DNA from: Nitrobacter vulgaris
GTDB taxonomy: Bacteria > Pseudomonadota > Alphaproteobacteria > Rhizobiales > Xanthobacteraceae
DNA length: 64,000 nt
Reading direction: 5' to 3'
Assembly (NCBI RefSeq): GCF_002028545.1
Contig: NZ_MWPQ01000042.1
Location: 1-64,000, forward strand
Shown here piece after piece: positions 56,718 to 58,604 of the stretch (position 1 is its first letter; each line of letters begins with the position of its first letter). The notes below the pieces were generated by a model that was not told the DNA's origin, did no database searches, and saw only the letters and a list, made by a program, of their open reading frames with translations. The position numbers and the translations under genes are program-made.

Positions 56718-57131
56718 TTATGCTTTCGCATCACCTGCATCAGCGAACAGCGCGGCAATGGTTTCCGATGCGATCAACGCGTTGGCTTCGAGGGGCTTAC
56801 CGACGACGTGCTCATCAACAAGCGCGAAAGCTTCATCTTCGGCCATCCCGCCACCAATCAGCCCGAGGGTGATGACGTTCTCCACATCGGTCGCCGAATA
56901 GATCTTTTCAAGAAAGCGTCTGTGGCAAGCCGCCGGTGTGTCGCCGTATTGCCCCGCCAGTGGTGCCCTGCCTATGCCGAGACGGGCAATCGTGATCATC
57001 CTCGAGACCTGTTTCAATTTCGCTCCACCTGCGATCATGGCGAGGACCTTGGGGTCGTTCAAATTGAAGGTACGAACCTTGCCGGCAAAACTGATCTGGC
57101 GAGCGCAACGATTGGTGTTGTTTTTGGTCAT
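56718..57131 (-). CDS. GTA gp10/phage tail-assembly-chaperone-like protein
   Basis: A 137-residue protein with a perfect GGAGG six bases before its ATG. The first half (RQISFAGKVRTFNLNDPKVL) and especially VITLGLIGGGMAEDEAFALV then DEHVVGKPLEANALIASETI match the pattern of the GTA-gp10/phage tail assembly chaperone family, whose members read GLxGGG-x(3-5)-A-x-x-LV-x(5-8)-PL. No other phage or gene-transfer-agent gene is seen in the window, so it is an orphan, next to a tRNA gene. The assignment is by pattern only. Confidence 0.6.
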   Translation of the reverse strand: MTKNNTNRCARQISFAGKVRTFNLNDPKVLAMIAGGAKLKQVSRMITIARLGIGRAPLAGQYGDTPAACHRRFLEKIYSATDVENVITLGLIGGGMAEDEAFALVDEHVVGKPLEANALIASETIAALFADAGDAKA

Positions 57132-57521: not shown

Positions 57522-57606
57522 GCCCGCCGATCACCTATCACGTCGCGCCGGGACCCTCAACCATCCTGCAGCGCAATGAATATCCCGGAACGGACGAGCA
57601 AGGGTC

Positions 57607-57635
57607 TTAACATGCCGCGCGTTCGTGCCTATGAT
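57607..57635 (+). promoter_or_regulatory. Near-consensus sigma-70-type promoter
   Basis: TTAACA (57607-57612) and TATGAT (57630-57635) separated by exactly 17 bases; each has one mismatch to consensus. It would start transcription near 57642, 29 bases ahead of the small ORF. Confidence 0.6.
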
Positions 57636-57670
57636 CTAGTTTCCAACAACAAACGAAAGGAGGTGATCCA

Positions 57671-57715
57671 GTGTCTTGTTCAGAGCGCTGTCACCTCGCT
57701 GGGATCGCCCGCTAG
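57671..57715 (+). CDS. 14-codon ORF behind a maximal Shine-Dalgarno sequence
   Basis: GTG at 57671 opens MSCSERCHLAGIAR then TAG. GGAGG is seven bases upstream inside the 17-nt 16S-complementary run. Two Cys are at positions 3 and 7. Another frame from GTG 57664 runs to TAA at 57761 (33 codons) but would have a poorly placed ribosome site. Either could be a leader peptide; translation is inferred from position only. Confidence 0.4.
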   Translation: MSCSERCHLAGIAR

Positions 57716-57771
57716 GCTTTTCGCCTCGTGGAGGGCGACTCAGCGCCCGGGCCAGCGAGAATAAACATCGG

Positions 57772-57801
57772 GGCGCGGCGGGACAGCTCGCCGCGCCTTT
57801 T
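57772..57801 (+). terminator. Rho-independent terminator of the compact unit
   Basis: GGCGCGGCG (57772-57780) and CGCCGCGCC (57789-57797) are exact reverse complements, loop of eight bases, followed by TTTT. It also lies downstream of the converging peptidase gene. Confidence 0.8.
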
Positions 57802-57935
57802 CGCTACAACAGGTGGATGCGGTCGGGCACCTCGCCATATCAGCGCAGCTGGCCCTCTCAGCATTAATGTTCACGCTGACCGATCCGCGCCGCCAGCGTG
57901 GCCGTACGCCACGAGCGTCAATCGTTGAACCGACA

Positions 57936-58589
57936 TCACCATCGCGCGTTGGCATAGTGCGTACGGCGTCGATGTTGACGGCGTGCCTCATGCCGTCCTC
58001 CGCTCCAGCCGCCAAGTTGGAAATGGCCACTGTCGGCATGTGCCCATTGCGCCCCCGCAACTAGCCCGCAGGAGTTCGCCAGCGCGATTTCGTTGTGGGG
58101 CATGCGTGGCCGCGTGACGTTGCGTCCGTACTGGTTGATATCGAGCGCCAATCCCGCCGGATGCAGAGAGCCATGCACACTTCCGTGCGCTCGCCAGCCT
58201 CCCATAAAACGGATCGGATAACCCTGCCGGTCGAGAGCCGACACCAGACATTGAAAAGCACCAGTGGCGCGGTTGGCAACATGCGCCTTGGCACCCGAGG
58301 CCGAACGGATCAAACCGACCGCTCTCCCCGCGCCCTCGGCCATGACCCGCGCAAGCCCGACGGGAATTCGTCTGTGCCCCTTGTGACGGACCCAGTGCCG
58401 GACAGCAACATGATGGGAATGCCAGCTGGCGTGCTCCGCCGAGTCATACTGCGGGTTCCAGTTGCCATAGCAGGGGCGCATCGCGTCGCATCCCGTGGTG
58501 GCAACCTGCCATTTCTTAGAAGAAGGTCTGGCCGATGAGGGTGTGGCAACAATGCAAATCATCGCCGATGCAATAAGCAGTCGGATCAT
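57936..58589 (-). CDS. M15-type (VanY/DacB-like) peptidase, exported
   Basis: A 217-residue protein: signal peptide (residues 1-20, ending TPSSA), a His/Trp-rich N-terminal region, then a zinc-peptidase-like core. HGSLHPAGLALDINQYGRN has the first His and Asp ligands of the M15 (D,D/L,D-carboxypeptidase) fold and WAHADSGHFQL the last His. These enzymes trim peptidoglycan peptides; extensin-like proteins of this group look the same, so the substrate is not certain. Start 58589 follows GGGAGAT. The C-terminus is basic (RHEARRQHRRR). Confidence 0.78.
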   Translation of the reverse strand: MIRLLIASAMICIVATPSSARPSSKKWQVATTGCDAMRPCYGNWNPQYDSAEHASWHSHHVAVRHWVRHKGHRRIPVGLARVMAEGAGRAVGLIRSASGAKAHVANRATGAFQCLVSALDRQGYPIRFMGGWRAHGSVHGSLHPAGLALDINQYGRNVTRPRMPHNEIALANSCGLVAGAQWAHADSGHFQLGGWSGGRHEARRQHRRRTHYANARW

Positions 58590-58604
58590 CGTATCTCCCG
58601 GCAT

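Follow-up and report, generated by a model that had tools for sequence, protein, structure and literature searches.

What is a perfect 17-nt complement of the 16S rRNA 3' end doing in an apparently self-contained transcription unit of Nitrobacter vulgaris? The unit lies within the 64,000-nucleotide stretch of DNA analyzed here (the window), and a preliminary description made from the sequence alone had seen in it a promoter, the 17-nt complement, a 14-codon GTG open reading frame (ORF) and a terminator, adding that the RNA may be undescribed. We find that this reading of the sequence is correct and that the element is already described rather than new. With a probability of roughly 0.9, it is this genome's ortholog of rreB, judged by the reported description of that gene. 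The identification puts a name to a 195-base gap.

Table 1. Features of the element and its neighbors in window coordinates. Class a denotes sequences with the window's type of peptide; SD, Shine-Dalgarno.
Feature	Position	Strand	Basis or remark
tRNA-Gly	neighbor of element	-	also named in the preliminary description
ORF with weak, sub-threshold Peptidase_M15_4 match	57936-58604	-	Pfam search
Sigma-70-like promoter TTAACA-17-TATGAT	57607..57635	+	promoter scan of 57522-57935
Promoter boxes	TTAACA 57607-57612, TATGAT 57630-57635	+	17-base spacer between
Predicted small mRNA (probable rreB), ~160 nt	57642..57801	+	inferred from promoter and terminator
Extended SD GAAAGGAGGTGATCCAG	57655..57671	+	perfect 17-nt complement of own 16S 3' end
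Probable rreB ORF, GTG start, 14 codons and TAG	57671..57715	+	kept in 21/21 class-a sequences
SD-hiding stem, 5' arm GAGGTGA	57660..57666	+	fold predictions, alignment
SD-hiding stem, 3' arm TCACCTC	57691..57697	+	16S anti-SD copy within codons 7-9
Proposed releasing stem, 5' arm CTCGCTGG	57695..57702	+	alignment, fold predictions
Proposed releasing stem, 3' arm CCAGCGAG	57752..57759	+	alignment, fold predictions
Intrinsic terminator, 9-bp stem and TTTT	57772..57801	+	sequence, predicted fold, covariation
Terminator arms	GGCGCGGCG 57772-57780 / CGCCGCGCC 57789-57797, TTTT 57798-57801	+	sequence

The promoter, the 17-nt complement, the GTG ORF and the 9-bp terminator all lie where the preliminary description had placed them, far beyond chance, and its view of a self-standing unit directed at the 16S tail is upheld (Table 1). 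All 17 bases of GAAAGGAGGTGATCCAG pair with the end of this genome's 16S gene, ...GCGGCTGGATCACCTCCTTTCTAAGG. In the window this motif has a single match at up to two mismatches (0.01 expected), the next stretch exactly complementary to the 16S tail reaches 10 nt, and the 20-nt block from SD to start codon (SD-start block), searched for at up to two mismatches, occurs once in the whole genome. The promoter scan of 57522-57935 lists a single promoter-like site, the TTAACA/TATGAT pair, with 10 of 12 matches (mean of 0.1 in shuffles), and transcription would be expected to start near 57642. By manual count, 14 of the 21 class-a upstream sequences carry TTAACA (11) or TTAACG (3), and 7 carry neither. 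The terminator was not listed by the terminator scan, yet it is present in the predicted fold, and among 18 relatives three of its nine pairs have changed on both sides.

rreB is reportedly a small mRNA of 165 nt, conserved in Bradyrhizobiaceae, in which a 17-nt SD that pairs with the 16S 3' end along its full length is followed directly by a GTG start and a 14-aa ORF. Its RNA is said to co-sediment with 30S subunits and to depend on ribosomes for its stability, its translation to be weak, hampered by the long SD and the GTG, and the RNA to become more stable when a stop codon takes the place of the start codon. A Rhodobacter/Roseobacter counterpart, rreR, reportedly combines an extended SD with an ORF of 18 aa in Rhodobacterales. 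The element has the same fully complementary 17-nt SD, the same lineage and the same GTG and 14-aa ORF behind the SD (the latter two in 21 of 21 class-a sequences as well), with a predicted length of ~160 nt against the reported 165; conservation in Bradyrhizobiaceae was also found, though 4 of the 9 genomes of the window's genus gave no DNA match to the element. The suggestion that the element may be undescribed is thus withdrawn, as its features agree with those of rreB, a small mRNA already in the literature. Among the matches listed in our literature searches for rreB there was no paper describing the gene itself; the available parts of PMC7298713 and PMC7217052 cite the rreB paper by title and authors (Hahn et al. 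2017, RNA Biol 14:1353, PMC5711450). Table 1 of PMC7217052 gives two peptides as unstructured, SP-1 (14 aa, 1.6 kDa, Bradyrhizobium japonicum) and SP-3 (18 aa, 1.9 kDa, Dinoroseobacter shibae), which we infer to be RreB and RreR, names that section 8 of that paper, in its available text, does not use. The lengths and computed masses of the peptides from Bradyrhizobium (L088; 1619 Da) and Dinoroseobacter (L076; 1964 Da) fit SP-1 and SP-3 as that table gives them. The portions available of PMC5082802, PMC10117765 and PMC4842269 hold nothing on the rreB element, and in those of PMC6943124 the complement of the 16S tail occurs in test oligonucleotides alone.

Allowing up to two mismatches, 31 of the 61 relatives and 94 of the 385 class genomes contain the SD-start block, and a shorter pattern (up to one mismatch) occurs in 77 of the 398 phylum genomes, by manual count 76 of 135 Alphaproteobacteria and 1 of 263 phylum genomes outside the class; these genome samples overlap with one another and with those behind the genus and RF01867 counts given elsewhere in this text. 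As a control, the reversed pattern gave one occurrence in the same phylum search. Bradyrhizobium, Rhodobacterales, Caulobacterales, Methylobacterium and Azospirillum are among the named matches listed, with genera assigned to the orders in which we take them to belong. We sorted by peptide 172 distinct sequences that had enough flank and the pattern, other variants and near-identical copies being left out, and the class labels used here (a, b, c, d, r and other) are our own. The window's type, RCHLAGIAR-like (class a), comprises 21 sequences, all of 14 aa and all with GTG, some of them from contigs named Bradyrhizobium, and the peptide of the element itself reads V/M-S-C-S-E-R-C-H-L-A-G-I-A-R; the Rhodobacterales-type LERGVGT sequences (class r) number 37, all of 18 aa, with 36 GTG starts and one ATG. 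The rest are 69 VSHC, 20 MSSE/MSSG, 3 SYE and 22 other sequences. Among the matches listed, peptides vary between classes and the SD-start block is common to them.

Several loci depart from this scheme. The same genome holds a decayed second copy (L187; G000:C46:3081-3129, minus strand) that still has the RCHLA-like region along with the arms CTCGCTGA and TTCAGCGAG, has lost the extended SD and runs in frame beyond the usual stop to 31 codons; it resembles the version of another genus (L031), so it may have arrived separately. At five loci, L038, L041, L107, L135 and L147, of which the last three are named Azospirillum, an ORF of 56-59 aa that begins like an exported protein (MSHGA..PV...LFG) follows the extended SD at up to two mismatches; most others have 14-35 aa. 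The matches listed also include the block in contigs whose names point to Gammaproteobacteria (L114 and L146; SAR92 cluster, Cellvibrionales), and in L146 a terminator-like hairpin and T run fall within the reading frame. Two further Gammaproteobacteria-labelled contigs (L137, L163) carry the MSSE type known from Alphaproteobacteria-named contigs, either as mislabelled bins or through transfer.

The borders of the ORF bear on its translation. In class a, where it has 14 codons in 21 of 21 sequences, the stop is TAG in 13, TAA in 4 and TGA in 4; in class r, where it has 18 aa in 37 of 37, TAG ends 19, TGA 9 and TAA 9. Because ORF length is constant while the stop codon varies, translation is supported. 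All 21 class-a sequences are identical in codons 6-10, third bases included, and a codon-position test gave no third-position excess and no ordinary coding signature; with third positions not the most variable, this invariance argues for a constraint on the RNA more than for selection on the peptide, which is probably not a structured product.

The preliminary description proposed that the SD can be hidden by GAGGTGA/TCACCTC and released by an overlapping stem, CTCGCTGG/CCAGCGAG. Both stems exist in the sequence and overlap at 57695-57697 alone. None of 200 shuffles folds as well as the RNA of the element (z -4.43), and the fold predicted for the window's RNA contains GAGGTGA/TCACCTC and not CTCGCTGG/CCAGCGAG. 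For structural comparison, alignment A1 holds every class-a sequence except L029, L094 and L122, whose longer middles shift the 3' arm (18 of 21), and A2 adds L155. Pairing of the SD with TCACCTC is possible in 19 of 19 aligned sequences, which bears out the claim that the SD can be hidden; the consensus fold pairs the SD core with TCACCTC inside the ORF, and the mean pair probability of this stem is 0.63-0.99 in all 19 single-sequence folds. The same 19 sequences show no two-sided changes in the stem, both arms of which may be held by other constraints. The mean paired probability of the SD core is 0.90 in class a (n = 21) and 0.93 in class r (n = 37), whereas it is lower elsewhere (b 0.63, c 0.65, d 0.55, other 0.69). 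In the 14 class-a rows shown (of 21), CACCTC lies within the predicted SD partner range in every case, the best duplex partner being GGGATCGCCC in 8 and TGTCACCTC in 2. Strong self-complementarity failed as proof of SD hiding for class a: complementarity of the SD to the downstream part is no stronger there than in dinucleotide shuffles (median z -1.2) and falls below z -2 in 0 of 21 sequences (b 23/69, c 5/20, d 0/3, r 16/37, other 3/22). In class r an anti-SD stands 3' of the ORF in 32 of 37 (shuffles: mean 1.8, largest 6). We would give about even odds that the ORF-internal copy of the 16S tail covers the SD core in free RNA.

Two-sided changes occur at 2 of the 8 pairs of CTCGCTGG/CCAGCGAG among the 19 sequences, one of the two owing to L155 alone, and as L155 was picked after its changed stem had been seen, compensatory pairs in A2 are a biased sample; 99.3% of cells are paired, as compared with 97.0% in shuffles. 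The consensus fold holds the SD stem along with the other five pairs of CTCGCTGG/CCAGCGAG. In 18 of 19 single-sequence folds, however, the releasing stem has a mean probability of at most 0.02 (0.82 in L023), and forcing it costs the window's RNA 4.4 kcal/mol at near-zero probability, such forced-stem energies being rough (in L021 the forced value falls below the free minimum). Release by CTCGCTGG/CCAGCGAG thus keeps a few compensatory changes in its favor and is otherwise unpredicted and costly, so that we regard the stem as a possible alternative and not as a demonstrated switch.

Most likely, the element is an mRNA that 30S subunits capture, that is translated weakly and that ribosomes control. 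The short monocistronic mRNA would pair through its 17-nt SD with the entire single-stranded 3' tail of 16S rRNA, with the GTG and 14-codon ORF at normal spacing behind it. In free RNA, TCACCTC within the ORF would cover the SD core, and a 30S subunit with a free tail would displace it because its own hybrid is much stronger; the computed SD-16S hybrid is -31.0 kcal/mol, whereas a 9-bp SD gives -13.8 and opening the fold costs 6.5. The over-long hybrid would then hold the 30S at a poor start codon, leaving the RNA ribosome-bound but little translated, and RNA stability would depend on ribosomes. The releasing stem would be unnecessary in this account. Ribosome control fits what is reported for rreB.

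The RNA might instead act in trans, occupying 30S tails to titrate 16S rRNA or to sense ribosomes, with the ORF incidental. A 17-bp hybrid of such strength in a stand-alone unit would suit this role, as would the missing third-position excess and peptides that are class-specific next to a common SD-start block. Yet the start codon, the spacing and the length of the ORF are conserved and the stops are interchangeable, which argues for translation, and ribosome titration would demand very high abundance; we consider this reading doubtful. We think it unlikely that the locus is a peptide gene whose 14-aa product has a function of its own: the fixed length (14 in 21/21, 18 in 37/37) and the kept start codon would be expected of one, but the sequences differ between classes, codons 6-10 are fixed down to their silent positions, a sign of RNA constraint, and both the 14-aa B. 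japonicum and the 18-aa D. shibae peptides are listed as unstructured in isolation in the available part of PMC7217052.

The genomic setting bears on whether the unit could be a leader-peptide attenuator governing a downstream gene. Of the two neighbors named in the preliminary description, the tRNA-Gly stands (minus strand) and the peptidase gene becomes a minus-strand ORF with a Peptidase_M15_4 match below threshold, for which three other genomes of the genus have 75-84% identical counterparts. Near the tRNA-Gly lies a Phage_TAC_11 (GTA-gp10) gene (56718-57131, minus strand, E 1.4e-9). In a gene-order comparison in which some relatives' loci extend just ~1.5 kb per side, the Peptidase_M15-like ORF adjoins the element solely in loci of the window's genus and a SpoU methylase lies beside it in 2 other loci; no partner gene appears to stand out from this shared gene order. 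The short ORF, overlapping stems and terminator are attenuator-like, but the peptide has no single-residue run, the releasing stem is barely predicted in folds, and the plus-strand ORFs past the terminator (57813-58064 and 58095-58538) have no Pfam match with an E value of 1 or lower, while the overlapping ORF on the minus strand is the one with the weak Peptidase_M15_4 match and genus counterparts. Because a leader-peptide switch needs a downstream gene and the terminator follows at once, with no recognizable gene among the two plus-strand ORFs searched behind it, we judge a cis-acting attenuator very improbable, and with it the leader-peptide switch proposed earlier. A chance match or a misplaced 16S fragment has nothing in its favor beyond the 17 nt and can be dismissed as next to impossible, since the letters flanking the 17 nt do not extend the 16S complement, which ends at their borders, only 0.01 matches are expected in the window, and the block is conserved in 31 of 61 relatives.

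The locus had also been said to belong to no known RNA family. An Rfam search contradicts this, giving a full-length match to CC2171 (RF01867) at 57647-57798 with E 1.4e-7, though its 46.8 bits do not reach the curated gathering score (at least 75 bits). The whole model aligns to the window, with the first 30 nt almost identical, and the alignment has the 5' block CAACAA.CGAAAGGAGGUGAUCCAGUGUCU and the 3' terminator hairpin in common. RF01867 matches 33 of the 61 relatives with an E value of at most 0.001 and exceeds the cut-off in 11 of the 61, and all 11 above-threshold places cover extended-SD motif sites. A weak match in the window's genome (L002; 17 bits; G000:C2:51132-51301, minus strand) lies on the opposite strand of the 16S 3' end at C2:51277-51293 and was rejected as false, explained by the complementarity of the extended SD to that end. 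From sequence likeness we infer that CC2171 and the rre RNAs are one family; if so, CC2171 members would be short mRNAs. Our literature searches found no paper equating CC2171 with rre and none naming CC2171 with Caulobacter and sRNA. VSHC loci (L018, and L007 and L019 with changes) have recurring W-I-L-A-S codons, CTGGATCCTCGCCTC in L018, that resemble the 16S tail CTGGATCACCTCC; these codons are able to pair with the extended SD, and SD complementarity falls below z -2 in 23 of the 69 sequences of this class. The recurring imitation of the 16S tail across these RNAs is suggestive and unproven and, with the RF01867 link, a useful addition.

Among known systems, rreR reportedly shares with the element an extended SD and a short ORF; its type of peptide differs (VSRxxLERGVGT...), and its anti-SD stands 3' of the ORF (32 of 37) rather than inside it. 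The extended SD motifs of Staphylococcus aureus, in the accessible text of PMC13009471, likewise give mRNA-16S pairing longer than usual, but are presented as an initiation feature in one species and not as one conserved small mRNA. CC2171, typed in Rfam as an sRNA and known there from Caulobacter, begins with the same SD-start block as the element, and has another ORF (model consensus GUGUCUCAUUGU..., VSHC type) and another middle part. It is conceivable, though we hold it only tentatively, that rreB, rreR and CC2171 form one Alphaproteobacterial family sensing free 30S subunits, with the SD hidden by the RNA's own imitation of the 16S tail and the peptide dispensable. The imitation would lie inside or behind the ORF, and only a subunit with a free tail would open the SD; if the internal imitation is real, these RNAs would offer a natural system for how cells read their supply of free 30S.
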